64,000 nt of DNA from Streptomyces sp. P9-A4 (lineage in GTDB: Bacteria > Actinomycetota > Actinomycetes > Streptomycetales > Streptomycetaceae), in the NCBI RefSeq assembly GCF_036634195.1, contig NZ_JAZIFY010000001.1:1374501-1438500 (forward strand), given 5' to 3'. Within the stretch, counting starts at the first letter, position 1; every line of letters starts with the position of its first letter. The notes under the pieces are model-generated. The model had not been told where the DNA came from. It saw nothing but the letters and a program-made list of their open reading frames with translations, and did not search any database. Below, one piece after another: positions 37,607-52,572 of the stretch. A program made the position numbers and the translations under genes.

Positions 37607-37700
37607 GGCAGGCACTCCTTCTTCGGTCCCTTTGTCTCTGATGTCTCCATTCGACACCCGGTGACCTGCGAGAAGGGGCGGTAAAGGGCCTGCGGGGAGG

Positions 37701-37746
37701 GGCCGGAAGTCCTCTTGCGAATGCATTCGCAAGAGGACTTCCGGCC
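37701..37746. terminator. Perfect 46-bp palindrome between protease and adhE genes
   Basis: Left arm 37701-37722 (GGCCGGAAGTCCTCTTGCGAAT) is exactly complementary to 37725-37746 with GC at the centre, which is itself palindromic. It begins 10 bases beyond the protease stop and about 95 bases before the adhE ATG. As RNA it forms a very stable stem and probably ends the protease transcript; as DNA it could be a cruciform or a protein site. Confidence 0.8.
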
Positions 37747-37755
37747 GGGTGGGGC

Positions 37756-38637
37756 CTAGTACACGCTGACCCCGTACGCGCTCAGCGCCTCCGTCACGGG
37801 CTGGAAGAACGTCGTCCCGCCCGAGGAGCAGTTGCCGCTGCCGCCGGAGGTGAGGCCGATGGCGCGGCTGCCCGAGTAGAGCGGGCCGCCGGAGTCGCCG
37901 GGCTCGGCGCAGACGTTGGTCTGGATCATGCCGTAGACGATGTCGCCGCCGCCGTAGTTCACGGTGGCGTTCAGGCCGGTCACGGAGCCGCTGTGAATGC
38001 CGGTCGTGGAGCCGCGACGGGTGACGGACATGCCGACGGTGGCGTTGGCGGCGCTGGTGATGTCGACGCTGCCGACCGTGCCGGACTTGGTCACCGAGCT
38101 GTTGGTGTAGCGCACGATGCCGTAGTCGTTGGTCGGGAAGCTCGACCCGGCCGTGGAGCCGAGCACGGTGGCGCGGCCCGAGTCGGAGTACCAGGTGCCC
38201 GCGCCGTCGGTGCAGTGGCCGGCGGTGAGGAAGTAGTAGTTCCCCGCGCTGTCCTTGACGTTGAACCCGAGCGAGCAGCGCCAGCCGCTCGTGTAGATCG
38301 CGTCGCCGCCGGAGATCAGCTTGTTGAAGGTGCCGGGGGTGCGTTCGATGCGCAAGGCGCCCGCGTTGGCTCCGGCCTGCCGCTTGATCTTCGCGATCTC
38401 GGCCGGGGAGACGGTGGAGTCCGCGGTGACGACCACCGCGCCGGTGGCGGTGTCGACCCGCCAGGCGGTGCCGGCCACATCGGCGGCGAGTACGGCGTCG
38501 CCCGCCGCGGAGAGCTGGGTGGCGCTGAACGTCTGCGCGGAGTCGGCGTTCGCGGTGGGGACGGCGAGCGCCGCGGCGGCGGCGAGTCCTGCGGTGACGG
38601 CGAGCAGCCGGATCGTTCTCGTGGGGGTGGTGCGCAT
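37756..38637 (-). CDS. Streptogrisin-type secreted serine protease (S1E), copy 1
   Basis: 293 residues from ATG 38637. Signal peptide 1-34 (ANA|DSA), a propeptide with repeated [21 protein letters not shown] motif (alpha-lytic-protease propeptide), and a mature enzyme starting at about [12 protein letters not shown], residue 105. Triad: H141 (TAGHC), D171 (NDYG), S249 (GDSGGP). Six mature Cys fit two or three disulfides. Close to S. griseus proteases A and B, which are also tandem genes. Autoprocesses and degrades extracellular protein. Confidence 0.95.
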
Positions 38638-38800
38638 GGTCCTCACTTCTCGTTCCTCCCGAGGGGAATCGGGGGCCCGCCGTGGGGTGCCGGGCCCGTG
38701 AGGCGCGGCCCGGGGGCCGGCGCTGTGGGGGAGTCTCGGGCCGTACGACTTCACGCCGCAAGGGCGCATTTCGGCCGTGCGGCCATCAACTCCCCAGTAA

Positions 38801-38817
38801 ATCAAGGGACTTGATGG
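38801..38817 (-). terminator. Weak hairpin between the two protease genes
   Basis: On the minus strand ATCAAG-TCC-CTTGAT followed by TTACT, inside a wider CCATCAA...TTGATGG repeat (38783-38817), 14 bases beyond the stop of protease copy 2. May attenuate read-through into copy 1 or be an operator for it. Confidence 0.4.
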
Positions 38818-38830
38818 TCCGATCGCCGGA

Positions 38831-39697
38831 TCAGTACAGGCTCACCTTGTACTTGGCGAGCGCCTCGGGCACCGGCTGGAAAAACGTGGTGCCGCCGGTG
38901 GAGCAGTTGCCGCTGCCGCCCGAGGTGATGCCGAGCGCCTTGGTGCCGTCGTAGAGCGCGCCGCCGGAGTCGCCGGGCTCGGCGCAGACATCGGTCTGGA
39001 TCATGCCTCGGACGGTGCCGCCGCCGGAGTAGTGGACGGTGGCGTCGAGGCCGGTGACCGTGCCGCCGTGGGTGCCGGTGGTGGAGCCGGAGCGCTTGAC
39101 GGACTCCCCCACGTAGGCGTCGGCCGCGCTGAAGCCTCCGGTGTGGCTCAGCGAGGCGTTGTCGTAGCGGACGAGCGCGTAGTCGTTGCCGGGGAAGCTG
39201 GACCCGACGGTGGCGCCGATCAGGGTGGACTGCGCGGAGTTGGTGTACCAGGTGTTCGCGATGTTGCCGCAGTGGCCGGCGGTGAGGAAGTAGTACGTGC
39301 TCCCGCTGCGTACGTTGAAGCCGAGCGAGCAGCGGTAGCCGCCGCCGTAGATGGCGTCGCCCGCGCCGAGCAGGGGCTTGAAGACGCCGGGGGTGCGCTG
39401 GACGCGGAGAGCTCCGGCGTCGGCGCCGGCCGCCGCGCGGATCTTCGCGATCCCCTCCTCGGTGACGGTGGCGTCGGCGGTGACGACGACCCGGCCGGCC
39501 GCTCTGTCCACGTACCAGGCGGTGCCGCCGACCCCGGCGGCGTCGACGGCGGCGTCGGCGCGGGCGAGCTGCGCCGCCGCGGCCGGGCCGGGGACGGGGG
39601 CGGCCTGGGCGCCGGGAAGTCCGATGGCCGTCACGGCCGCGATGCCGGCGGCGAGGGCGAGCAGACGGGTGCGGGTGTTCCTCACTGTGCTCCTCAC
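38831..39697 (-). CDS. Streptogrisin-type secreted serine protease (S1E), copy 2
   Basis: 288 residues from a GTG at 39697 with AAGGAG just upstream (a GTG four codons later is possible). Signal peptide to about AQA|APV (residue 32), propeptide with [20 protein letters not shown], mature start near [19 protein letters not shown]. Triad H142 (TAGHC), D172 (NDYA), S244 (GDSGGA). Clearly a paralogue of copy 1 and in the same orientation, so the pair arose by tandem duplication. Mature domains differ around the substrate pocket, so specificities may differ. Confidence 0.95.
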
Positions 39698-39896: not shown

Positions 39897-40685
39897 TCAG
39901 GAGGGGAGCAGCAGCCGCTCCCCCGCCGCCACGGCGGTGTCGAGCGTGTTCCCCGGGGGCGGGAAGGGACAGATGAAGTGGTCCGCGAAGGCGCACGGGG
40001 GCAGCAGCGCGCGGTTGAGATCCACGGTCACCGAACCGTCCGCCGCCGGGGCCGCCGGGCGCAGGAACCGGAAGCGGTAGCTGTCCCGGCCGCTGGTGGC
40101 GTCCGCGAAGACCGCCCACAGCGAGCCGTCCTCCTCGACGGCCACCTGGAGGGTGTGCTCGCCGCCGTGCAGCTCGAAGACCAGCTCTCCGGCCAGCCCG
40201 AGGCCGCGCTCGACGCCGTCGGCGTTCTCCACCCGCACGCTGCGGGTCTCCCCGTACGGGCGGTAGACGCCGGGCACCACCCAGCGCTCGTCGTACGGGG
40301 TGGCCTCGATGCCCCGGAAGGCGGCGCGGGCCTCGGAGCCGGGGTCGAAGTCCCGTACCGCCCAGTGCCCTTCCCGCCGCAGCACCACGAGCCGCCGGCC
40401 CGCCGACTCGACCCGGGACTCGTGGATCGGGCCGTGGTCGGCGCCGAGCCCGACCGTGCCGGCGAGGGGCTTGCCGTCGACGGTGACCCCGTCCTCGGCG
40501 CGGGCACTGAGGAGCACCTCGTCACCGTCCTCCCGCCACTCCCCCGGAACGGCCGGAATTCGCCCCTCCGGGTAGTCCGAGAGCCAGTGGGTGCCCGTGA
40601 GGGAGAGCGGGCCGTACGAGGAGGAGACCGCGGCCTCCCGCTGTTCGTGCCAGTGCTGCCAGTCCTGCCGGTGATCCGTACTCAT
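39897..40685 (-). CDS. DUF1684 family protein
   Basis: 262 residues from ATG 40685. DUF1684 pattern: DWQHWHEQREAAVSSSYGPLSLTGTHWL at the start, then the beta-rich core with YRPYGETRSVRVENADGVERGLGLAGELVFEL, and the closing VDLNRALLPPCAFADHFICPFPPPGNTLDTAVAAGER. No signal peptide. Conserved His and Cys residues near the end (PPCAFADHFICPFPP) may bind a metal or substrate. It is the last gene of the sulfur operon, five bases after a flavin monooxygenase. No activity is known to me for the family; here a step after C-S cleavage is plausible. Confidence 0.85.
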   Translation of the reverse strand: MSTDHRQDWQHWHEQREAAVSSSYGPLSLTGTHWLSDYPEGRIPAVPGEWREDGDEVLLSARAEDGVTVDGKPLAGTVGLGADHGPIHESRVESAGRRLVVLRREGHWAVRDFDPGSEARAAFRGIEATPYDERWVVPGVYRPYGETRSVRVENADGVERGLGLAGELVFELHGGEHTLQVAVEEDGSLWAVFADATSGRDSYRFRFLRPAAPAADGSVTVDLNRALLPPCAFADHFICPFPPPGNTLDTAVAAGERLLLPS

Positions 40686-40690
40686 GGTGC

Positions 40691-41992
40691 TCAACCCTTC
40701 CATACGGGCCCGGGAAGCCCGAGGTGCGACCGCAGCGTCGTGCCCGAGTACTCCGTACGGAAGACCCCGCGCTCCTGGAGCAGTGGGACGACCCGGTCGA
40801 CGAAGCCGTCGAGGCCGCCCGGGGTGAGGTGCGGGACCAGGATGAAGCCGTCGGCGGCGTCCTCGGCGACGAACTCCTCCAGGGCCGCCGCCACCGTCGC
40901 CGGGCTGCCGACGAAGGACTGGCGGCTGGAGGACTCGATGACCGTCTGACGGATCGACAGCCCCTTGGCCTCGGAGAGCGCCCGCCACCTCCGGGCCACC
41001 GCCACCGGGTCGGCGACCCTCACCCGGCCCTGGACCAGCGCCGATTCGGGGTCGGGGTCGATCTCCGGGAGCGGTCCGTCGGGGTCGTGGCCGGACAGGT
41101 CGCGGCCCCAGATCTGCTCCAGGGCGAGGATCGCGTTCTGCGGGGAGACCTGCTGCCGACGGATCTCGGCGGCATGCTCCCGCGCCTCGGCGTCGGTGTC
41201 CCCGAGGACGTACGTCACGCCCGGCATGATCTTCAGGTCGCCGGGCCGCCTCCCGTACCGGGCGAGCCGCCCCTTGACGTCGGCGTAGAAGTCCCGGCCC
41301 GCCTCCAGGGTCGAATGGCGGGTGAAGATCACGTCGGCGCCCGAGGCGGCGAACTCCCGGCCCTCGGCGGAGTCCCCGGCCTGGATGACGACCGGGTGCC
41401 CCTGCGGGGAGCGCGGGACGGTGAACACGCCCTCGATCCCGAACTGCGGCCCGCTGTGCGCGAAGGGCCGCCGCTCGCCGTCCGGGGTCCAGGAGTCCCA
41501 CAGCTCGCGGGCGGTGGCGAGGAACTCGGCGGCCCGGGTGTACCGGTCGGCGCGGTCCAGATAGCCGCCGCGGCGGAAGTTCTCGCCGGTGAAGGCGTCC
41601 GAGGAGGTGACGACGTTCCAGGCGGCCCGGCCCGCGCTGAGGTGGTCGAGCGAGGCGAGCCGGCGGGCCAGTTCGTACGGTTCGTTGAAGGTGGCGTTGA
41701 CCGTGGCGGCCAGACCGAGCCGGTCGGTGACGGCCGCGAGCGCGTTGAGGACGGTGATCGACTCGGGCCGGCCGACGACGTCCAGGTCGTGGACCCGCCC
41801 CGCGTGCTCGCGCAGCCGCAGCCCCTCGGCCAGGAAGAAGAAGTCGAACAGGCCGCGCTCGGCGGTCCTGGCCAGGTGCTCGAAGGAGGAGAAGTCGATC
41901 TGCGAACCGGAGCACGGATCGGCCCAGACGGTGGTGGAGTTGACGCCGGGGAAGTGCGCGGCGAGGTGGATCTGCTTCCTGTCCCGGCTCAT
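40691..41992 (-). CDS. FMN-dependent monooxygenase, NtaA/SnaA/DszA (CmoJ/YxeK-like) family
   Basis: 433 residues from ATG 41992 overlapping the previous stop (ATGA). Luciferase-like TIM barrel of the NtaA/DszA/SoxA group: IHLAAHFPGVNSTTVWADP, FDFFFLAEGLRLR, WNVVTSSD, NFRRGGYLDRADRY, HPVVIQAGDSAEGREFAA. Such enzymes use FMNH2 from a separate reductase to oxidise C-S or C-N compounds. In Bacillus the family members beside tcyJKLMN open N-acetyl-S-alkyl cysteines, which fits the acetyltransferase and transporter here. No flavin reductase gene is visible in the window. Confidence 0.9.
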   Translation of the reverse strand: MSRDRKQIHLAAHFPGVNSTTVWADPCSGSQIDFSSFEHLARTAERGLFDFFFLAEGLRLREHAGRVHDLDVVGRPESITVLNALAAVTDRLGLAATVNATFNEPYELARRLASLDHLSAGRAAWNVVTSSDAFTGENFRRGGYLDRADRYTRAAEFLATARELWDSWTPDGERRPFAHSGPQFGIEGVFTVPRSPQGHPVVIQAGDSAEGREFAASGADVIFTRHSTLEAGRDFYADVKGRLARYGRRPGDLKIMPGVTYVLGDTDAEAREHAAEIRRQQVSPQNAILALEQIWGRDLSGHDPDGPLPEIDPDPESALVQGRVRVADPVAVARRWRALSEAKGLSIRQTVIESSSRQSFVGSPATVAAALEEFVAEDAADGFILVPHLTPGGLDGFVDRVVPLLQERGVFRTEYSGTTLRSHLGLPGPVWKG

Positions 41993-43014
41993 GCGGTCGC
42001 TCCCGTCGTCGCGTACTGGCTGACCGGCCGGGCGAGTCCCAGATGGTCGCGGAGGGTGGTTCCCTCGTGGGCCGTACGGAAGAGGCCCCGGTCCACGAGC
42101 CGGCGCACGGTGTCGCCGGTGAACCGCTCCAGGTCCCGTTCGGGGACGGCCGGCACGAGGTGGAAGCCGTCGACCGCGCCGCCGCCGTGCCAGCCGGCGA
42201 TCAGCTCGGCGAGCGCCCCCGGCCCGCCCTCGTACGCGTCGAGGTCGACGGTCTCCGAGAGCAGGACGCGCAGCTGCCCGGGGTCCCGGCCGTGGGCGCG
42301 GGCCCCCTCCCGCAGTTCGGCGCGGAGGGCGGCGGCCTCCTCGGCGGAGGAGGCGCGGATCAGGACCACGTCGGCGTGGCGGGCGGCGGTGTCCCGGGCG
42401 GCCGGGCGGGTGGCGTCGACGACGGTCACCGGGTTGCCCTGCGGGGGCCGGGGGACGATCGAGGGGCCCTTGACCGAGAAGGTCGCGCCCTGGAAGTCCA
42501 CGTGGTGGAGCTTGCGGCGGTCGACGAACCGGCCGGTCGCCACGTCCCGTATCTCGGCGTCGTCCTCCCAGCTGTCCCACAGCTTCCGGGAGACCTCGGC
42601 GACCTCGCCCGCCTCCTGCCACAGCTCGGCGGTCGGCGGGGCCGGCCTGCGGCCGAAGAGCCGGGCCTCGGCCCCGGTCGGGGAGACCTCGATCCGCCAG
42701 CCCGCCCGGCCCCGGCTCACCCAGTCGAGGGTGGCGACGGCGGCCTGGACGTGGAAGGGCTCGGTGTGGGTGGTGGTCACGGTCGGTACGAGGCCGACGG
42801 AGCGGGTCTCGGGGGCGACCCGGGCGAGGACGGCGAGCGCGTCGAGGCCGGGCCGGCCGAAGGAGTCGTCGTGGGTGAGGAAGTCGAGCGCGGCCGTGTC
42901 GGCGAGCCGGGCGAGGGCGACCGTACGGGCGGTGGTGTCCGGGCCGGGCTCGGCCCCGCCGGAGCCCGGGGCGAGCTCGGCGGCGAGGTGGAGTGGCCGG
43001 GTGCTGGTGGTCAT
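41989..43014 (-). CDS. Second luciferase-like flavin monooxygenase
   Basis: 341 residues. Luciferase-like barrel of the shorter LLM type (LAAELAPG, DFLTHDDSFGRPGLDALAVLARVAPETRSVGLVPTVTTTHTEPFHVQAAVATLDWVSRGRAGWRIEVSPTG). It aligns by eye with the start and end of the neighbouring 433-residue enzyme, including HLGLARPVSQY against HLGLPGPVW, so the two are distant paralogues and could act in sequence or as a heteromer. ATGA overlap downstream. About 150 bases with tandem repeats separate it from the binding-protein gene upstream. Confidence 0.88.
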   Translation of the reverse strand: MTTSTRPLHLAAELAPGSGGAEPGPDTTARTVALARLADTAALDFLTHDDSFGRPGLDALAVLARVAPETRSVGLVPTVTTTHTEPFHVQAAVATLDWVSRGRAGWRIEVSPTGAEARLFGRRPAPPTAELWQEAGEVAEVSRKLWDSWEDDAEIRDVATGRFVDRRKLHHVDFQGATFSVKGPSIVPRPPQGNPVTVVDATRPAARDTAARHADVVLIRASSAEEAAALRAELREGARAHGRDPGQLRVLLSETVDLDAYEGGPGALAELIAGWHGGGAVDGFHLVPAVPERDLERFTGDTVRRLVDRGLFRTAHEGTTLRDHLGLARPVSQYATTGATA

Positions 43015-43045
43015 GCGGTCTCTCTCGAAGCAGGTGAGGGCGGGT

Positions 43046-43200
43046 CGGTTCTCGGTACGGGCAGCCGGAGAGGGGCAGTTCTCGGTGCGGGGCAGGCCGG
43101 GGTGGTCGGTTCTCGGCGCGGGACGGACCGGAGAGGGTCAGTTCTCGGTACGGGCAGCCCGGAGAGGGTCAGTTCTCGGTGCGGGGCAGGCCGGGCGGGT
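43046..43200. repeat. Five degenerate ~31-bp tandem repeats derived from a gene's 3' end
   Basis: Copies of the type CAGTTCTCGGTGCGGGGCAGG start at 43048, 43078, 43109, 43141 and 43172 (GTTCTCGG core). The last copy is the coding end of the binding-protein gene (codons for PGLPRTEN and stop), so the others are duplicates of that end lying beyond its stop, before the monooxygenase start. Confidence 0.8.
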
Positions 43201-44143
43201 TGATCTCCGACTTCGTCACGGCCTCGGTGCTCAGGCCCCAGCGCTTGAGGACCTGGGCGTAGGTGCCGTTCTCGACGAGGTGGTCGATCGCCGCCGCGTA
43301 GGCGGCGACGAGGCCGCTGTCCTTCTTCGTGGTGGCCGCGATCTTGCCCTGGAGTCCGGCGCCCGCTCCGGAGAACTTCCCGACGGACTCGGTCTGTCCG
43401 GCGGAGTTCACGTGGTGGGCGACGGAGGGGTTGGGGCCGAGGTAGCCGTCGATCCGGCCCGACTGGAGGGCGAGGTAGTAGTCGGTGGTGTTGTCGTAGT
43501 ACTTGATGTCGACGCCCTTGCGGCCGGCCTTCTCGTTCTGCCGGGACCAGTCGACGAGGATCTTCTCCTGGTTGGTGCCCGAGCCGACCGCGATCCGCTT
43601 GCCCGACACGTCCTCGGGGCCCTTCACCGTCCAGCCGGAGCCCTTCTTCGCCTCGAAGGCGAGGTCGTCGAGGCGGTAGGTGGCGAAGTCGTACTTGTCC
43701 TTGCGCTCCTCGGTGACGGTGACGTTGGAGAAGACGGCGTCGAACTTGCCGCTGTCCAGGCCGACGAAGAGGTTCTCCCAGGAGACCGGCTCGAACTGGG
43801 GCTTCAGCCCGAGGGTGTCGGCGACGAGGACGGCCAGGTCGAGTTCGACGCCGATCAGCGTCTTGTCGTCGGTGGCGCGGAAGGTGAGCGGCGGGTTGCT
43901 CTTGGCGGAGACGCCGAGGATCAGGGTGCCTCTCTTGCGGACGGCCTCGGGAAGCTTGCCGGCGATGGCGTCGACGGCGGCGGTGCGGACGCGCTTCTGG
44001 TCCGGGCCCACGTTGATGCCGGTGTCCTTCTGGCCCTCCGGCTTGATCTCGTTGACGGCGGCGTCACCCGCGCCGCAGGCGGTGAGGACCCCGAGGGCGG
44101 TGAGCGAGGCGAGGGCGGTGAGGACGGTGCGACGGGTCTTCAT
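43169..44143 (-). CDS. ABC transporter solute-binding lipoprotein, cystine/amino-acid family (TcyJ/K-like)
   Basis: 324 residues from ATG 44143. Lipobox LGVLTAC gives a lipidated Cys near residue 22. Family 3 binding-protein fold: RGTLILGVSAKSNPPLTFRATDDKTLIGVELDLAVLVADTLGLKPQFEPVSWENLF, FDAVFSNVTVTEERKDKYDFATY, RIAVGSGTNQEKIL, TDYYLALQSGRIDGYLGPN. Second binding protein of the locus; it lies 47 bases after the ATPase gene. Likely ligands are S-containing amino acids, from context. Its last codons form one unit of a five-copy repeat. Confidence 0.92.
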   Translation of the reverse strand: MKTRRTVLTALASLTALGVLTACGAGDAAVNEIKPEGQKDTGINVGPDQKRVRTAAVDAIAGKLPEAVRKRGTLILGVSAKSNPPLTFRATDDKTLIGVELDLAVLVADTLGLKPQFEPVSWENLFVGLDSGKFDAVFSNVTVTEERKDKYDFATYRLDDLAFEAKKGSGWTVKGPEDVSGKRIAVGSGTNQEKILVDWSRQNEKAGRKGVDIKYYDNTTDYYLALQSGRIDGYLGPNPSVAHHVNSAGQTESVGKFSGAGAGLQGKIAATTKKDSGLVAAYAAAIDHLVENGTYAQVLKRWGLSTEAVTKSEINPPGLPRTEN

Positions 44144-44190
44144 GGCGGTACTCCTGTGCACGAGAGAGAGGGAGAGACGGAGAGAGGGGG

Positions 44191-44991
44191 TCAGAGGACC
44201 TTGGAGAGGAAGGCGCGGGTGCGTTCGTGGCGCGGCCGGTCGAGGACCTCGGCCGGCGGGCCCTGTTCGACGATCCGGCCCTCGTCCATGAAGACCACCG
44301 TGTCGGCCACCTCGCGGGCGAAGCCGATCTCATGGGTGACGACGATCATGGTGGTGCCGGAGGCGGCCAGGTCCTTGATGACGTCGAGGACCTCGCCGAC
44401 GAGTTCCGGGTCGAGCGCGGAGGTCGGCTCGTCGAAGAGCAGCAGGCCGGGTTCGAGGGCGAGCGCGCGGGCGATGGCGACCCGCTGCTGCTGTCCGCCG
44501 GAGAGCTGCTTGGGGTACGCCCGCGCCTTGTCGGCCAGTCCGACGCGGGTCAGCAGCTTCAGGGCCGCGGCCTCGGCGTCCTCGCGGCGGCGCCTGAGCG
44601 CCGAGACGGGGGCCTCGACGATGTTCTCCAGGACCGTGAGGTGCGGGAAGAGGTGGAAGTTCTGGAAGACGAAGCCGATCCGGGTGCGCTGCTTGAGGAT
44701 GTCCCGCTCGCGCAGCTCGTACAGCTTGTTCCCGGAGCGGCGGTAGCCGACGAGGGTGCCGTCGACGCTGACGGTGCCGCTGTCGACCTTCTCCAGGTGG
44801 TTGATGGTCCGCAGCAGGGTGGACTTGCCGGAGCCGGAGGGGCCGAGGACGACGGTGACCTCGCCGGCCCGGACGTCGAGGTCGATGCCGCGCAGGACGT
44901 GGAGCGCGCCGAAGTGCTTGTGGACGGACCGGATCTCGACCTTGGCGGTGGTGGTGGCCGGATCGGCCGGGGCGGTGGTGACGGAGCTCAT
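44191..44991 (-). CDS. ABC transporter ATPase, polar amino acid type (TcyN-like)
   Basis: 266 residues from ATG 44991 overlapping the permease stop (ATGA). Walker A GPSGSGKS, Q-loop GFVFQNFHLFPHLTVLEN, signature LSGGQQQRVAIARAL, Walker B LLLFDEPTSALDPE, switch VTHEIGFAREVAD. It is the only ATPase in the locus, so it should power both permeases. The 12-residue insertion around GYRRSGNKLYELRERD is seen in cystine-type transporters such as TcyN and TcyC. Confidence 0.95.
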   Translation of the reverse strand: MSSVTTAPADPATTTAKVEIRSVHKHFGALHVLRGIDLDVRAGEVTVVLGPSGSGKSTLLRTINHLEKVDSGTVSVDGTLVGYRRSGNKLYELRERDILKQRTRIGFVFQNFHLFPHLTVLENIVEAPVSALRRRREDAEAAALKLLTRVGLADKARAYPKQLSGGQQQRVAIARALALEPGLLLFDEPTSALDPELVGEVLDVIKDLAASGTTMIVVTHEIGFAREVADTVVFMDEGRIVEQGPPAEVLDRPRHERTRAFLSKVL

Positions 44992-45890
44992 CGGACGCTC
45001 CCCTTCGCGTAGTGGCGTTCGACGTAGTGCTGGACGACGGAGAGCGCGGTGGTGAGCAGGACGTACCAGGCGGTGGCGACCATCAGCAGCGGGACGACCC
45101 GCCCGTTGCGGCCGTAGACGACCTGGACCTGGTAGAAGAGTTCGCCGATCGCCATGACGGAGACGATCGAGGTGCCCTTGAAGAGCGAGATGATCTCGTT
45201 GGCGGCGTTGGGCAGGATCGAGCGCATCGCCTGCGGGAGCACGATCCGCCGGACCTGCCGGAGCCTCGGGATGCCGAGGGAGGCCGCCGCCTCCGACTGG
45301 CCCCCGTCCACGGCGAGTACACCGCCGCGGACGATCTCCGCCGCGTAGGCCGCCTGGTGCAGGGCGAGGCCGAGGACGGCCGCGCTCATCTCGCCGACCA
45401 GGCCCATGGTGTCGAAGCTGAGGAAGCTCGGCCCGAAGGGGACGCCGATGCTCAGTTCCTTGTAGAGGTAGGCGAGGTTGAACCAGAAGAGCAGCTGGAC
45501 GATGAGCGGGATGGAGCGGAAGGCCCAGATGTAGCCGAAGGCGACCGACCGCAGGAACGGGCTGGCGGAGAGGCGCATGAAGGCGAGCACGATGCCGATC
45601 GCGAAGCCGAGCGCGGTGCCGTAGAAGGTGAGCTGGAGGGTGACCCAGACGGCCCGGAGGACCGTCTCGGTGGTGAAGAAGGCGGCGAAGACGCCCCATT
45701 CCCAGCCGGGGTTGGTGACCAGCCCGTGGGCGAACTGGACGAGCAGGACGGCGGTGACGACGACGGCCACCCAGCGCCAGGGGTGGCGCACGGGGACGAC
45801 CACCGGATCGGCCGGTGCCGGCGGCAGGGGCGGGGCGGCGGGTTCCTTCCCGACCGGGCGGGTGGCGGGCGGATCGCTGGTGAGAGACAT
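44988..45890 (-). CDS. ABC transporter permease, polar amino acid type, 1 (TcyL/M-like)
   Basis: 300 residues from ATG 45890. A Pro-rich cytosolic N-terminus, then about five or six spans with the HisM-type domain: TLQLTFYGTALGFAIGIVLAFMRLS and the ATPase-contact EAA loop GQSEAAASLGIPRLRQVRRIVLPQAMRSILP. 43% or so of positions match the other permease of the locus by eye, including the ends HYVERHYAKG and HYVERHYARG, so they are paralogues that probably form a heterodimer. Confidence 0.93.
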   Translation of the reverse strand: MSLTSDPPATRPVGKEPAAPPLPPAPADPVVVPVRHPWRWVAVVVTAVLLVQFAHGLVTNPGWEWGVFAAFFTTETVLRAVWVTLQLTFYGTALGFAIGIVLAFMRLSASPFLRSVAFGYIWAFRSIPLIVQLLFWFNLAYLYKELSIGVPFGPSFLSFDTMGLVGEMSAAVLGLALHQAAYAAEIVRGGVLAVDGGQSEAAASLGIPRLRQVRRIVLPQAMRSILPNAANEIISLFKGTSIVSVMAIGELFYQVQVVYGRNGRVVPLLMVATAWYVLLTTALSVVQHYVERHYAKGSVR

Positions 45891-45954
45891 GGCGGTTCCT
45901 CGGAAGGGACTCGGGGGGAGCGGGAGACGCGGCGCGGGAGGTGCCGGGCCGGAG

Positions 45955-47775
45955 CTACGACGCGGGGGTCAGGGCGCCCGGCAGGGCCGGGGGCCGACAC
46001 TCCGGGGCGCGCAGGAAGCCCAGCGCGGCCCGTGCCGTGATGTCGTTCTGCCGGAAGACGATTCCGCCGGTACGGGGCCGGGTGAAGGCGCTGTCGGTGC
46101 GGACGCTGGTGTGCGGTCCGAGGGCGAAGCGGCGGGGGTGGGGGCGTCCGTCGTGCTCCAGGAGCCGGCCGTCGACGGGGTCGACGACGAGGCGGCCGCC
46201 GGCGGTGGCGCGGATCCCCTCCTCGTACAGGCCGCGCAGCAGCGGGCTGCCGGTGTGTTCGAGGGTGGGGTCGGGGATGCGGGCCTCGACGAGGGCGCGG
46301 GCCTCGGTCCACTCCCCCGGTACGGCGGCGGACGCGGCCCGGAAGAGGCCGCGTTCCTCGTCGGTCTCGACGGTGATCCGCGGACCGAGGAAGCGGACGA
46401 CGCCGGCCCGGGAGAGCGCGAGGAGCCGGCGCAGCCGGGGGCCGGGCGGTCCGGAGGCGAGGTAGCTGAAGAAGCCGTGCCACCAGGCGCCGGGGTCGAC
46501 GTGCTTGCCGAGGCGCAGGAGCTGGCCGTAGACGGAGAGCAGCCCTGCGAAGACGGCGGCGTCGGAGCTGTGGGCGGGGTCGTGGCGGCGGGCCAGGTCC
46601 TCGGTGATGTAGTCGCGCAGACCGTGCTGGAGGGCTTCGGCGGATTCGTAGCGGAGGCCGTCCAGGGGGTGGTCGAGGGCGTCCAGGTCGAGCCGGTCGG
46701 CGGGGTCGGGGACGGCGGCGGCGACGACCGCGGCGAGTTCGGCCCCGCGCGGCGGCGCCGCCTCGTAGGCCCGCTCGAAGTCCTCCCAGGCGAGGGCGGT
46801 CCGCTCGGGGTGGGTGGAGAAGAGCCGGTGGTAGTGGGCCCAGCCGAGTTCCTTGTCGATGAGCGGCCACACGTCGCGGCGGAAGTCGACCGGCCCGCCG
46901 CGGGCGAGCAGGGCGCCGGTCTGCTCGGGGCCGAAGAAGCGGGGCAGCGGGGGCCGTTCGCCGTCGAGCTCGTAGCCGATCTTGGAGTGGTACGGGACTC
47001 CCCGCCGCGAGCCGACGTGCAGCACGGGCTCCTTGCCCGAGGGCACGTAGACGAGTGCGTCGCCCTCGCCCTCGTACCGGCCGCCGCGGCCCTCGGTGAG
47101 CAGCACCATCAGGTCGACGAAGGCGAGGCCGAAGCCCCGGACGAGGACGGGTTCGCCTGCGGGCAGGGCGTCCAGGTCGGTGTCGGCGGTGAAGTCGGGC
47201 GGCAGGTGGACGAGCCGGTGGCGGGCGGCGAACTCGGCCAGGTCCCGCTGCTCGGCGTCCGGCCGGGCGTCGACGTGGCCGACGGTGAGGACCACGAGGT
47301 CGGCGAGGAGCGGCACGGCCTCGCCGTCCAGCCAGACCCGCTGGTGTCCCTCGCGGGGGCCGCCGATCCGCAGGGCGGTGGTGCGGTGTTCGTGGACGGT
47401 GACGGAGGGGGGCAGTGCGTCGCGGGCCCGCTCGTACACCCAGCGCAGATAGGCGCCCTGCTGGGGGCGGGTGGGGAAGGCGCGGCCGTCGATGCCGGCC
47501 CAGGCGGCGAGGGTGGGTCCCGGGCGGACGGGTCCCGCCAGGTCCACGGTCTCGTCGGTGAACATCGTGACGTCCCCGGCGCGGGAGTTCATCCAGAGCA
47601 GCGGGGACTGCTCGGTGCGCCAGATGCGGCCGGGTCCCGCCGGGTGCGGGTCGACGAGGTGGATGTCGAGGGGGGCGTCGCCGTACAGCTCGGGCAGGTT
47701 GGCGGCGAGCCGTTCGAGGAGGCCGGTCCCGCGCGGTCCGGCGCCGACTATCACGATCGAGGGGCGGCGGCTCAT
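45955..47775 (-). CDS. Large FAD/NAD(P)-binding protein in the sulfur operon
   Basis: 606 residues from ATG 47775, overlapping the permease stop (ATGA). N-terminal dinucleotide site IVIVGAGPRGTGLLERLAANL followed by DIHLVDPHPAGPGRIWRTEQ and the MNSRAGDVTMFTD segment typical of the FAD-NAD(P) family PF13454; a second site region at LVVLTVGHVDARPD and a third VRGFGLAFVDLMVLLTEGRGG. No membrane spans. The family is related to flavin N-hydroxylases and reductases. Sitting between two transporter permease genes it may reduce flavin for the two monooxygenases or oxidise the sulfur compound itself. Not proven. Confidence 0.88.
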   Translation of the reverse strand: MSRRPSIVIVGAGPRGTGLLERLAANLPELYGDAPLDIHLVDPHPAGPGRIWRTEQSPLLWMNSRAGDVTMFTDETVDLAGPVRPGPTLAAWAGIDGRAFPTRPQQGAYLRWVYERARDALPPSVTVHEHRTTALRIGGPREGHQRVWLDGEAVPLLADLVVLTVGHVDARPDAEQRDLAEFAARHRLVHLPPDFTADTDLDALPAGEPVLVRGFGLAFVDLMVLLTEGRGGRYEGEGDALVYVPSGKEPVLHVGSRRGVPYHSKIGYELDGERPPLPRFFGPEQTGALLARGGPVDFRRDVWPLIDKELGWAHYHRLFSTHPERTALAWEDFERAYEAAPPRGAELAAVVAAAVPDPADRLDLDALDHPLDGLRYESAEALQHGLRDYITEDLARRHDPAHSSDAAVFAGLLSVYGQLLRLGKHVDPGAWWHGFFSYLASGPPGPRLRRLLALSRAGVVRFLGPRITVETDEERGLFRAASAAVPGEWTEARALVEARIPDPTLEHTGSPLLRGLYEEGIRATAGGRLVVDPVDGRLLEHDGRPHPRRFALGPHTSVRTDSAFTRPRTGGIVFRQNDITARAALGFLRAPECRPPALPGALTPAS

Positions 47776-48623
47776 CGCGCACCGGCCGTTCCGCGGGCGT
47801 AGTGCCGCTCGACGTAGTGCTGGCCGAGGCCGAGGACCGAGGTGACGGCGACGTACCAGAGGGTGGCGACCAGGAGCAGCGGGATGATCTCGTACGTGCG
47901 GTGGTAGACGAGCTGGGTCGAGTAGAGCAGGTCCTGGACCGCGATGACGGAGACGATCGAGGTGCCCTTGAGGGTGCCGATCAGCATGTTCCCCGCGGGC
48001 GGGACGATGGCGCGCATGGCCTGGGGCAGCACGATCCGGGAGAGCCGGCGCCACCGGCCGAGGCCGAGGGACTGGGCGGCCTCGATCTGGCCCCGGTCGA
48101 CGGAGAGGATGCCGCCGCGCACGACCTCGGCGGCGTAGGCGGCCTCGTGCAGGGTGAGGCCGATGACGGCGACGGAGACGGGGCCGAGGAGGTTGACCGT
48201 GTTCACGCCGAGGATCTGCGGGTAGAGCGCCCCGATGTTGAACCAGAACAGCAGCTGGACCAGGATCGGGGTGGATCTGAAGAACCAGACGTATCCCCAG
48301 CTCACCGCCCGTAGCACGGGGTTGGCGGAGAGTCTGAGCACGGCGAGCAGGGTGCCGAGGACGAAGCCCAGGGCCATCACGAGGGCGGTCAGCCACAGGG
48401 TGAGCCCGAGGCCGCGCAGGACGGACGCGGAGGTGAAGTACTGCGCGACGACGTCCCATTGGAAGGCCTTGTTGCGGACGACCGAGACGAGGCCGAGCGC
48501 GAGCAGGGCGAGGACGAGGGCCGCGGTGGTCCACTGCCCGATGCGGCGGGCGGGGACGACCCGGAGGGGTGTCGGTGCGGCCGGCGGGGCCGTGGAGGGG
48601 GCTTTGACGAGGGTCGCGGACAT
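47772..48623 (-). CDS. ABC transporter permease, polar amino acid type, 2 (TcyL/M-like)
   Basis: 283 residues from ATG 48623 (an upstream ATG at 48677 is less likely). HisM-type permease: TLWLTALVMALGFVLGTLLAVLRLSAN, SWGYVWFFRSTPILVQLLFWFNIGALYP, EAA loop GQIEAAQSLGLGRWRRLSRIVLPQAMRAIVPP. First gene of the minus-strand sulfur operon, coupled to the FAD protein. A promoter candidate lies about 100 bases upstream. Confidence 0.93.
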   Translation of the reverse strand: MSATLVKAPSTAPPAAPTPLRVVPARRIGQWTTAALVLALLALGLVSVVRNKAFQWDVVAQYFTSASVLRGLGLTLWLTALVMALGFVLGTLLAVLRLSANPVLRAVSWGYVWFFRSTPILVQLLFWFNIGALYPQILGVNTVNLLGPVSVAVIGLTLHEAAYAAEVVRGGILSVDRGQIEAAQSLGLGRWRRLSRIVLPQAMRAIVPPAGNMLIGTLKGTSIVSVIAVQDLLYSTQLVYHRTYEIIPLLLVATLWYVAVTSVLGLGQHYVERHYARGTAGAR

Positions 48624-48724
48624 GCGGACGCTCCGTGGATGCCAGAGGGCGGATCGAACACGGGGGTGCGCCTTCACACGCTGAGCCGCGGACCCTGGCC
48701 CCTCAGCCCGATCCGCCCTTCGAG

Positions 48725-48753
48725 GCTATGCGGTCAACACGCCCCGCTGTCAA
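48725..48753 (-). promoter_or_regulatory. Putative promoter of the minus-strand sulfur operon
   Basis: On the minus strand TTGACA (48753-48748), 17-base spacer, CATAGC (48730-48725), about 100 bases before the permease ATG. The -35 is perfect, the -10 fair. Confidence 0.45.
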
Positions 48754-48824
48754 GGGTGTCCGCACTGTGAGCCGTACGTCTCATCGCGGTTGACGCGGGA
48801 ACGGATGCCTGTTCCACTGGGGCC

Positions 48825-48893
48825 ATGCATCCGCAGCAGCTGGTCACGCGCTCCCACATCGACTTCGGTCGCGTGTGGTCCTCTTCCTGTTGA
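48825..48893 (+). CDS. Cysteine-ending leader peptide of the sulfur locus (attenuator uORF)
   Basis: A 22-codon ORF, MHPQQLVTRSHIDFGRVWSSSC, then TGA. It has the RSHIDFGRVxxxxC pattern of the short putative leader peptides that precede sulfur-assimilation genes in actinobacteria (R-x-H-[IV]-D-[LF]-x-R-V...C), with cysteine as the last codon before stop. It is 148 bases upstream of the GNAT gene on the same strand. Scarcity of charged tRNA-Cys would stall ribosomes at the end and change the fate of the downstream RNA. Weak GGGG Shine-Dalgarno, or near-leaderless from the TTGACG at 48790. Too short for ordinary gene callers. Confidence 0.8.
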   Translation: MHPQQLVTRSHIDFGRVWSSSC

Positions 48894-49041
48894 GCCGACC
48901 TCCCGCTCTGCCCGTTGCACCCTGCCCGCGTGCTGTTTTCCGCGGCGCCTTCACATCCGGTCCCCTCGTGGGTGCCTGAGCTCTCCCCTCCCCTCGCCCT
49001 GCCCCGCTTCCCCTGTGTCTCCTTCGTCCTGAAGGACCGTC
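48894..49041 (+). promoter_or_regulatory. C-rich, G-poor tract after the leader peptide, possible Rho-dependent attenuator
   Basis: The 148 bases between the leader stop and the GNAT ATG are strongly pyrimidine-rich, above all 48970-49035, where C and T dominate and G is scarce, in contrast to the G-rich plus strand elsewhere. I found no convincing terminator hairpin. Such a tract fits a Rho loading site uncovered when ribosomes leave the leader. GAAGGA precedes the ATG. Confidence 0.5.
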
Positions 49042-49521
49042 ATGACCTTCGCGTTGTCCGTGCACCGGACCACGACCACCGACCCCCTGGCGCGCCCGCT
49101 CCTCGATGAGCTGGCGCACGAGTACACGACCCGGTACGGCTCCGCGCACGATCTGAGCCGCTATCCGGCGGCGGAGTTCGCCCCGCCGCACGGCGCCTTC
49201 CTGCTCCTCCTGGAGCAGGGCCGGCCCGTGGCGGGCGGCGCGTACCGCCGCTACGACGAGCGGACCGCCGAGCTGAAGCGGATCTGGACCCACTCGGCGC
49301 ACCGCAGGCGCGGCCTCGCCCGCCGGGTCCTCACCGTGCTCGAACGGGAGGCCGCCGCCCGCGGCTACTCCCGCCTCTATCTGACGACCGGACCGCGCCA
49401 GCCGGAGGCCAAGGGCCTCTATCTGGCGAGCGGCTACCGCCCGCTCTTCGACGTGTCCGCCGACCCCGAGTCGATCGGCCCGCTGCCGTTCGAGAAATTC
49501 CTGGAGACCCCGAGACCATGA
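49042..49521 (+). CDS. GNAT N-acetyltransferase of the sulfur locus
   Basis: 159 residues. Single GNAT fold with the acetyl-CoA loop RIWTHSAHRRRGLARRVLTVLEREAAARGYSRLYLTTG and the closing ASGYRPLF. In the Bacillus S-substituted-cysteine pathways (YtmI, SnaA/YxeL) a GNAT next to a TcyJKLMN-type transporter N-acetylates the imported amino acid before monooxygenase attack; the same role is the best guess. It overlaps the binding-protein gene by ATGA and follows the leader peptide. Confidence 0.9.
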   Translation: MTFALSVHRTTTTDPLARPLLDELAHEYTTRYGSAHDLSRYPAAEFAPPHGAFLLLLEQGRPVAGGAYRRYDERTAELKRIWTHSAHRRRGLARRVLTVLEREAAARGYSRLYLTTGPRQPEAKGLYLASGYRPLFDVSADPESIGPLPFEKFLETPRP

Positions 49522-50486
49522 GTACGCGTACGCGTTCCGGCACCGCCCGCACGACCCTCGGCTTCGCGCTGATCACCGCCGCCGCGCTCACGCTCACCGC
49601 CTGCGCCGGGGGTGAGCCCGCGACGGCCCCGGCCGGGGCGGCGGGCGTGGCGAAGGGCGCGCTGCCGACCGAGGACGTGGTGTCGGCGGTCAGGAAGAAC
49701 GAGGCGGCGGCGAAGCTGCTGCCCGCCGAGGTCAGGCAGCGGGGGAGCTTCACCCTCGCCGCCTCGGTCGGGACCCCGCCCAGCTCGGCGTATCTCGCTG
49801 ACGGGAGGTCGGTGGTGGGGGTGGACGCCGACTTCGCCGCGGCCGTGGCGAAGGCCCTCGGTCTTGAGGTGCGGCGCGAGGTGGTCGGCTTCGAGGCGAT
49901 CCTGCCGGCGCTGGGCAGCGGCAAGTACGACGTGGGCACCGGGAACTTCGGGGTGACGGAGGAGCGGCGCAAGGCCATCGACTTCGTGACGTACGTCAAC
50001 GACGGCCAGGGCTTCGCGAGCCGGGCGGACAGCTCGCTGAAGGCGGTCACCGACCTGACGCAGCTGTGCGGACTGAAGGTGGCGGTGAACGCGGGCACCA
50101 CCTTCGAACGGACCCTGGAGGAGAACAAGGGCCGGTGCGCGGAGGCCGGAAGGCCGCCGTACGAGGTGAACGTCTACAGCGAGACCGGGGCGATCTGGAT
50201 GTCGCTCCAGCAGGGCCGCAGCGATGTCGTGATGAACACCATCAACGGTGTGCGGTACGCGGTGACCCAGCAGAAGAACGTGAAGTTCCTCAACGAGTAC
50301 CGGCGGCTCGACGTCGGCTTCGCGTTCCGGAAGGGCACCCCGCTCGCGCCCGCCTTCCAGGCCGCGGTGAACGGCCTGAAGACGGACGGGACGTACGACC
50401 GCATCCTCCGGAAGTGGGGGGTGACGGGCTCGGGCATCGCGAAGTCGGAGATCTCCCCGCCGGAGATCCCGGCGCCGACGAAGTAG
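49518..50486 (+). CDS. ABC transporter solute-binding lipoprotein, amino-acid family (TcyJ/K-like)
   Basis: 322 residues, ATG overlapping the GNAT stop. Lipobox LTLTAC; family 3 fold with RQRGSFTLAASVGTPPSSAYLADGRSVVGVDADFAAAVAKALGLEV, KYDVGTGNFGVTEERRKAIDFVTYV, VAVNAGTTFERTLEE, GAIWMSLQQGRSDVVMN. Its C-terminus (KSEISPPEIP) resembles that of the other binding protein (KSEINPPGLP), so they are paralogues feeding the same permeases. Being under the cysteine leader, this arm may be tuned separately from the permeases. Confidence 0.92.
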   Translation: MSTRTRSGTARTTLGFALITAAALTLTACAGGEPATAPAGAAGVAKGALPTEDVVSAVRKNEAAAKLLPAEVRQRGSFTLAASVGTPPSSAYLADGRSVVGVDADFAAAVAKALGLEVRREVVGFEAILPALGSGKYDVGTGNFGVTEERRKAIDFVTYVNDGQGFASRADSSLKAVTDLTQLCGLKVAVNAGTTFERTLEENKGRCAEAGRPPYEVNVYSETGAIWMSLQQGRSDVVMNTINGVRYAVTQQKNVKFLNEYRRLDVGFAFRKGTPLAPAFQAAVNGLKTDGTYDRILRKWGVTGSGIAKSEISPPEIPAPTK

Positions 50487-52137: not shown

Positions 52138-52572
52138 ATGGGATCGGTGCGCAAGGCCAGTGCCTGGCTGGGACTCGTCGAGGACAACGACGAGCGTTAC
52201 TACGACGACGAGTACGCCGACGGTGCCGAGGGCGGCGACGCCTGGGTGACGGACCCCCGGGTCCGGGTGGCCACGGACACCGCCGAGGATCGGGGCCGCC
52301 GGATCGCCACCGTCTCCCCGGACGGCTTCCGGGACGCCCGCGGCATCGGCGAGCTCTTCCGGGACGGCGTCCCGGTGATCGTGAACCTGACCGCGATGGA
52401 GGGGAACGACGCCAAGCGCGTGGTCGACTTCGCCGCCGGTCTCGCCTTCGGCCTGCGCGGTTCGATCGAGCGCGTGGCGACGCGGGTCTTCCTGCTGACC
52501 CCGGCCGACACCCAGATCGTCACGGGCGAGACGGGCCGGCGCCGCCAGGACGGATTCTTCAACCAGAGCTGA
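52138..52572 (+). CDS. sflA: SepF-like cell division protein, probably SflA
   Basis: 144 residues from ATG 52138 with an AAAGGAGG Shine-Dalgarno. Short N-terminal helix ([18 protein letters not shown]) that could touch the membrane, acidic linker, then the SepF domain (about 55-135): [69 protein letters not shown]. The ylm/fts genes that flank true sepF in actinobacteria are absent, so this is the paralogue; by remembered gene order it is SflA (SCO1749), which influences hyphal branching and FtsZ. The call rests partly on synteny. Confidence 0.85.

Follow-up and report, generated by a model that had tools for sequence, protein, structure and literature searches.

The window analysed here is a 64,000-nucleotide stretch of Streptomyces sp. 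P9-A4 (contig NZ_JAZIFY010000001.1, positions 1,374,501 to 1,438,500; GC 67-76% along the window) from a genome of 7.5 Mb in two contigs. At 39897..50486 it contains a locus of two divergent operons, with eight genes on the minus strand and two on the plus strand (Table 1). The original prediction, made from the DNA letters, had listed ten genes here as a system for the import and oxidative breakdown of S-substituted cysteines. All ten are present in that arrangement, each with a Pfam domain above the gathering score: SBP_bac_3 in the two solute-binding proteins (SBP1 and SBP2), BPD_transp_1 in the two permeases (PERM1 and PERM2), ABC_tran in the ATP-binding cassette (ABC) ATPase, GNAT in the acetyltransferase, Bac_luciferase in the two luciferase-like monooxygenases (LLM_A and LLM_B), NAD_binding_9 in the 606-residue flavin adenine dinucleotide (FAD) protein, and DUF1684. 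With the starts used, four neighbouring gene pairs overlap by 4 bp. A leader open reading frame (ORF) and the conserved regulatory region around it (48748-48893) had been overlooked.

Table 1. Features of the locus and its intergenic control region (window coordinates; FMN, flavin mononucleotide).
Feature	Position	Strand	Remarks
DUF1684 protein, 262 aa	39897..40685	-	invariant C231-x7-C239; candidate thiol-relay/reductant
LLM_A, NtaA/DmoA-family FMN monooxygenase, 433 aa	40691..41992	-	TIGR03860; predicted catalytic subunit
LLM_B, short LLM, 341 aa	41989..43014	-	4-bp overlap with LLM_A; predicted non-catalytic partner
SBP1, amino-acid solute-binding lipoprotein	43169..44161	-	PF00497
ABC ATPase, TcyN-like	44191..44991	-	NF008428
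PERM2, permease	44988..45890	-	PF00528
FAD/NADPH monooxygenase, 606 aa, FzmM-like, altered substrate chamber	45955..47775	-	PF13454
PERM1, permease	47772..48623	-	PF00528
Candidate -35 box, PERM1-FAD operon	48748..48753	-	TTGACA on minus strand
Palindrome TGAGCCGTACGTCTCA, candidate shared operator	48768..48783	.	between the two -35 boxes
Leader promoter TTGACG-N17-TCCACT	48790..48818	+	6 nt before leader ATG; leaderless transcript predicted
Leader ORF MHPQQLVTRSHIDFGRVWSSSC*, Ms4527A-like cysteine leader peptide	48825..48893	+	NF042936
GNAT acetyltransferase, lineage-specific, not core	49042..49521	+	PF00583
SBP2, amino-acid solute-binding lipoprotein	49518..50486	+	PF00497; 4-bp overlap with GNAT

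The FAD gene has a match above 500 bits in 51 of 101 sampled Streptomyces genomes, the window's own counted in, and its closest named relatives are from Streptomyces (91% in Streptomyces sp. Root1304). Of 80 loci fetched via FAD similarity, the 69 with at least 21 kb were scored for gene content, using our own identity thresholds and a simple gene caller that can miss genes, such as FAD in L047. The FAD gene was called in 68 of these, a count that is ascertained since the loci were chosen by it, followed by DUF1684 and LLM_B (61 each), SBP2 and PERM1 (58 each), the ATPase (56), LLM_A (55), PERM2 (39), SBP1 (37) and GNAT (25). The synteny of the ten genes is far beyond chance. A search of gene neighbourhoods for their co-occurrence, which the original prediction had suggested, found all ten together in 18 loci and all but GNAT in 13. 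A form with a single SBP, a single permease and no GNAT occurs in 14 loci. In nine others, FAD is accompanied by at least one of LLM_B, LLM_A and DUF1684 while transporter genes are absent, and the remaining 15 are mixed. By these counts, FAD, LLM_B, LLM_A and DUF1684 therefore form the enzymatic core, while the transporter parts and GNAT are variable.

The leader ORF lies on the plus strand between the divergent operons and consists of 22 codons, the last of which encodes Cys. Its match to the Ms4527A Cys-rich leader family of NCBIfam (NF042936) scores 22.2 bits (E 7.9e-5). A motif scan found the leader in 108 of 110 FAD loci (L003-L112), with two unrelated extra matches. The two misses are L043, where the contig ends within PERM1, and L112, which was recovered by a second scan. 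A second leader motif had no unrelated match in 3.27 Mb of strand, nor any in shuffled sequence. Among 37 distinct sequences, variation falls at the third codon positions (0.138, versus 0.029 and 0.035 at the other two), and the leader is therefore very likely translated. Upstream, a promoter of the form TTGAC-N17-19-TC[CA]A[CT]T, in which the second -10 base is C and not the usual A, ends 5-8 nt before the leader ATG in all 106 distinct upstream sequences. This spacing is close to that described for leaderless transcripts in S. lividans (PMC8079986), and the leader transcript is apparently leaderless as well, so that a leaderless-type promoter and a Cys codon before the stop, the marks of Ms4527A-type leaders, both appear to be present. 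On the other side, TGTCAA, the complement of the minus-strand TTGACA, precedes the PERM1-FAD operon in 105 of the 106 upstream sequences. The palindrome between the two promoters is perfect, where chance predicts 0.19 occurrences with two mismatches or fewer; it is the only exact copy in the genome, and 80 of 106 distinct relatives have it with at most two mismatches.

Cysteine leader peptides are known from mycobacteria (Canestrari 2020, as cited in PMC9094748 and PMC13236596), where they are described upstream of cys genes (PMC1262725, PMC4633059). The window leader shares with them a short, apparently leaderless ORF with Cys at its end, located 5′ of sulfur genes, but has one or two Cys residues instead of a run, scores below the family cut-off and is sometimes orphaned. 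A DNA pattern for the leader core, scanned in 394 Actinomycetes genomes, occurs in 19, each of them one of the 40 Streptomyces in the set, whereas the reversed pattern has no match. The gene next to the 20 leaders found this way is SBP2 or GNAT of the present locus in seven cases, an SsuD-like LLM in six, SsuE in one (223 bits, cut-off 164) and unclear in six. The SsuD-like LLMs have alkanesulfonate monooxygenase as their best NCBIfam match, at 185-204 bits and thus far below the cut-offs of 510-518. In the window's genome, a model of the leader family finds seven sites at E <0.01; at a loose E of 10, it matches in 9 of 14 control genomes as well. The genes following the seven sites include a nitrite/sulfite reductase with CysH (271 bits, cut-off 154) and, at two sites, SsuA-family binding proteins below the cut-off. 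The remaining sites precede a GST-type gene, a 2OG-Fe(II) oxygenase, a second DUF1684 gene and the present locus, the GST-type and oxygenase genes being candidates for new sulfur genes. The first of these (L126, G000:C1:475700; assigned by Pfam) adjoins an Rrf2-like regulator recognised by eye, and the second (L129, G000:C1:4348000; likewise by Pfam) has a similar oxygenase in the sister locus L237.

Four genomes carry such sister loci (L234-L237), with FAD proteins of 51-55% identity and an operon in the order SsuD-like LLM, GNAT, SBP2 and ABC parts, divergent from PERM1-FAD. In L234, L235 and L237 a leader precedes the SsuD-like operon, and in L234 and L235 an LLM_B-LLM_A pair with its own leader lies close by. 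SsuE in L237 (218 bits, cut-off 164) and SfnG and SsuA in L236 (626 and 203 bits, cut-offs 383 and 163.5) pass their NCBIfam thresholds, unlike an SfnB/DszC-like gene and the SsuD-like LLM. Of 12 LLM_B-LLM_A pairs located elsewhere, eight are preceded by a Cys leader on the same strand, found with a pattern that has no unrelated match in 3.27 Mb of strand. DUF1684 paralogues outside the genus, in a different family of the same order, have HIDFGRVWS-type leaders beside them (L140, L149). The leader ORF points to sulfur, which is evidence independent of the gene names. The part in sulfur acquisition assigned to the locus by the original prediction is backed by this leader and by the organosulfur neighbours of the sister loci.

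The FAD protein is related to FzmM, the FzmM/CreE-type L-aspartate N-hydroxylase (structure 8cp2; E 2e-93, 41% identity). Its structure model superimposes on FzmM by Foldseek with E 4e-48 and a template modelling (TM) score of 0.82; since the model is only moderate (predicted local distance difference test score, pLDDT, 74), what is said of the pocket rests on the alignment. The fold and the FAD/NADPH site are shared, and FzmM W51, N62, R13 and R577 are kept. Across 22 locus-type sequences R566 is kept, as are R15, W52 and N63 where covered (18 of 22). The six-residue Arg/Asn cluster that binds aspartate in FzmM (R266, R276, R409, R412, N413, R416) is, however, replaced in all 22 by K265, P275 (A in one), L413, Y416, G417 (A in one) and a non-Arg residue at 420, whereas all six positions are intact in 11 of 16 FAD paralogues compared. 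One FzmM-like paralogue in the same genome (L214, G000:C1:6100870-6102519) keeps the pocket arginines and has Q at FzmM N413. In FzmM, the side-chain carboxylate of aspartate is reported to overlap a sulfate held by the arginine cluster (PMC10404684), and the substrate of the window enzyme should therefore lack this anionic group.

Two rival explanations meet this evidence. The enzyme could be an aspartate-type N-hydroxylase, with the locus making or breaking a nitro or N-oxy metabolite and having no part in sulfur metabolism. The identity to FzmM and the four kept residues speak for it, but the loss of the aspartate-binding cluster, the lack of a lyase domain among the ten proteins, and the sulfur-type leader and neighbours make it very improbable. 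Alternatively, the substrate could be an amino acid or amine that bears a sulfonate or sulfinate group (cysteate, homocysteate, taurine-like), on which the LLM pair would act as a desulfonating monooxygenase beside SsuD. The SsuD-like LLM in the same operon of the sister loci, with SsuA, SsuE and SfnG around, would suit such a substrate, as would the binding of sulfate at the FzmM arginine site (PMC10404684). We nevertheless judge it distinctly unlikely, as none of the 22 locus-type sequences retains the residues with which FzmM holds an anionic side chain, and LLM_A is closer to YtnJ, NtaA and DszA than to SsuD.

The two LLMs look like one heterodimer of a catalytic and a non-catalytic subunit. 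LLM_A scores 398 bits against TIGR03860 (cut-off 280) and LLM_B 226 bits, below that cut-off. The best PDB match of LLM_A is YtnJ (1yw1, E 4.5e-79), which by homology makes it a CmoJ-type LLM; the likeness to YtnJ/CmoJ that had been claimed for the FMN monooxygenases thus holds for one of them. LLM_B matches the NtfO1 chain 7e36_A over nearly its full length. In alignments to YtnJ, NtaA and NtfO2, LLM_A is without 14 residues of a side loop, whereas LLM_B keeps the loop and is without about 85-90 residues of the lid. LLM_A retains seven of the eight residues that hold FMN in NtfO2, while LLM_B has V, T, W and V at NtfO2 positions T133, H151, Y155 and Q203. A short subunit with the loop and no lid, paired with a long one with the lid and no loop, is likewise the pattern of StmO1-StmO2 and NtfO1-NtfO2, the genes of which also overlap, and such a complementary split has been offered as a possible reason for heterodimer formation among LLMs (PMC8027225). 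Those enzymes hydroxylate a polyketide, however, whereas the window pair is located in a sulfur locus. In L059 (7551-8639), L090 and L110, a third LLM lies between the leader and GNAT, and in L059 it is CE1758-like but below the cut-off.

The DUF1684 protein, which comparison with relatives suggests most likely starts at 40685, passes the gathering score of PF07920. Haloferax HVO_1043, another member of the family, has been placed in a thiol-relay group on its Cx7C motif (PMC9426492). Family and motif are common to both, but the window protein has about 110 extra N-terminal residues before the domain and is encoded in a sulfur operon. In Bacillus, the product of CmoJ is a sulfenic acid that requires reduction (PMC10863075); by analogy, the DUF1684 protein may act as a thiol relay, a dithiol protein fitting this step. 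The genome's second DUF1684 gene (L130, G000:C2:396800-401200) has its own leader-like ORF, MTPLVTRRHVDYVRVTTTSCSG, in front.

Two SBPs, two permeases and one ATPase reproduce the make-up of Bacillus TcyJKLMN, as had been claimed. The NCBIfam comparison took in SBP1, PERM2, the ATPase and SBP2. SBP1 has a cystine SBP (128 bits, cut-off 312), PERM2 a cystine permease (134 bits, cut-off 300) and the ATPase TcyN (NF008428; 320 bits, cut-off 406) as the best match, while SBP2 is a generic polar amino-acid binder by family match.

The closest known systems are the ytm/ytn (CmoO-CmoJ) and yxe (ScmK/YxeK) loci of Bacillus subtilis, which share with the present one an amino-acid ABC importer and a YtnJ/CmoJ-related LLM and, in some lineages only, a GNAT. 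Among the 101 genomes, GNAT matches of at least 69% identity occur in 21, of which 19 are within the 51 with the FAD gene; the next best matches reach at most 50%. The GNAT required in a ytm-type locus is called in only 25 of the 69 loci; of the 51 genomes with the FAD gene, 19 have it and 32 show no match above 50% identity. A Pfam search limited to the ten locus proteins revealed no N-acetylcysteine deacetylase domain, and by an NCBIfam scan of the locus proteins neither LLM is a CmoO-type chain. Since GNAT is dispensable and the locus has no deacetylase, the acetylate-oxidise-deacetylate route is dropped as the conserved core. The locus further differs from the Bacillus systems in having the FzmM-like FAD enzyme, the LLM pair, DUF1684 and the cysteine leader ORF. 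It could still be a Streptomyces edition of the Bacillus pathway, with GNAT acetylating the substrate, the flavin enzymes splitting the N-acetyl-S-substituted cysteine and a deacetylase encoded elsewhere freeing cysteine. The position of GNAT in the leader-side operon of 25 of the 69 loci and of all four sister loci, the presence of the FAD gene in 19 of the 21 genomes with a close GNAT, and the nearness of LLM_A to YtnJ/CmoJ would agree with this, as would the report that acetylation is crucial in all described cases of S-modified cysteine breakdown (PMC12757645). We regard it as unlikely given the 32 FAD genomes without a close GNAT, although another GNAT could serve there, and the ten proteins without a deacetylase or CmoO-type LLM. 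Of the original prediction as a whole, the sulfur role, the cystine-type transporter and the YtnJ/CmoJ-like LLM therefore stand, whereas operation as an N-acetyl pathway does not.

Overall, this is probably a sulfur-starvation salvage locus that combines cysteine-repressed import of a cysteine-like amino acid, substituted at sulfur, with its oxidative desulfurisation, perhaps with no acetylation step. At low levels of charged tRNA-Cys, the behaviour of the ribosome on the leader would allow expression of the GNAT-SBP2 operon, and a regulator at the central palindrome would co-control the divergent one. The imported amino acid would have sulfur in a largely uncharged side chain, as in an S-alkyl- or otherwise S-substituted cysteine or its sulfoxide. 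The FzmM-like enzyme would oxygenate it at sulfur, akin to the sulfoxidation by CmoO, or at the alpha-nitrogen. The LLM_A/LLM_B heterodimer, with FMNH2 from a reductase encoded elsewhere, would cleave the C-S bond, and DUF1684 would reduce the sulfenate or mixed-disulfide product to cysteine or a precursor. Acetylation by GNAT would be an optional side step in some lineages. An S-substituted cysteine is a plausible substrate and appears the most likely one.

Several observations weigh against this interpretation. The leader scores below the Ms4527A family cut-off of 45 bits, with no match in the genome above it, and an Rfam search found no element. In sister locus L236 the search found no leader in front of the SsuD-like operon, and one lies within about 1.5 kb in just 2 of 30 loci drawn by the general TIGR03860 model and 5 of 29 DUF1684 loci. 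Both SBPs match generic polar amino-acid binders, LLM_A has R at the position of H151, which is needed in NtfO2, and the substrate could also be a sulfonated amino acid. In addition, simple cis attenuation does not explain leaders that are orphaned or distant. No co-directional gene follows next in 13 loci (L009, L011, L014, L019, L023, L073, L075, L078, L080, L085, L088, L099, L106), all of which have an antisense gene there and FAD as the first divergent gene, and in eight further loci the nearest co-directional gene is 538-1748 bp away. The orphan-type leaders are still conserved as protein (0.016 and 0.048 versus 0.091 at third positions; 11 distinct sequences), which is puzzling because a cis attenuator would be expected to degenerate once nothing lies behind it. 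Their target may be the divergent operon, they may work in trans, or the downstream genes may have been lost recently.

More tentatively, the salvage locus could represent a third, acetylation-independent route to cysteine, in which the specificity of an FzmM-type enzyme has shifted from aspartate to an uncharged thioether amino acid, the LLM heterodimer splits the S-oxide or N-oxygenated intermediate, DUF1684 reduces the product, and the leader, which persists even without a gene behind it, has the divergent operon as its target or works in trans. The salvage model would join three orphan items in one process, namely the FzmM-like flavoenzyme of 51 of 101 Streptomyces, DUF1684 and the paired LLMs, and it predicts that the breakdown of S-modified cysteine need not begin with acetylation, contrary to the published rule (PMC12757645). 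The leader itself is a candidate cysteine-responsive cis element for Streptomyces; in a transcriptome-based list of eight Streptomyces leader peptides in PMC8079986, none is named as cysteine-dependent.

Two adjoining serine proteases with an alpha-lytic prodomain flank the locus at 37756-39697, with genes that look similar by eye at that place in L033, and a long minus-strand frame in the region 35012-38761 appears by eye to be partly AdhE-like, resembling a bifunctional aldehyde/alcohol dehydrogenase. On the other side, a SepF-family gene is located at 52138-52569, and look-alikes, again recognised by eye, lie on the same side in relatives.

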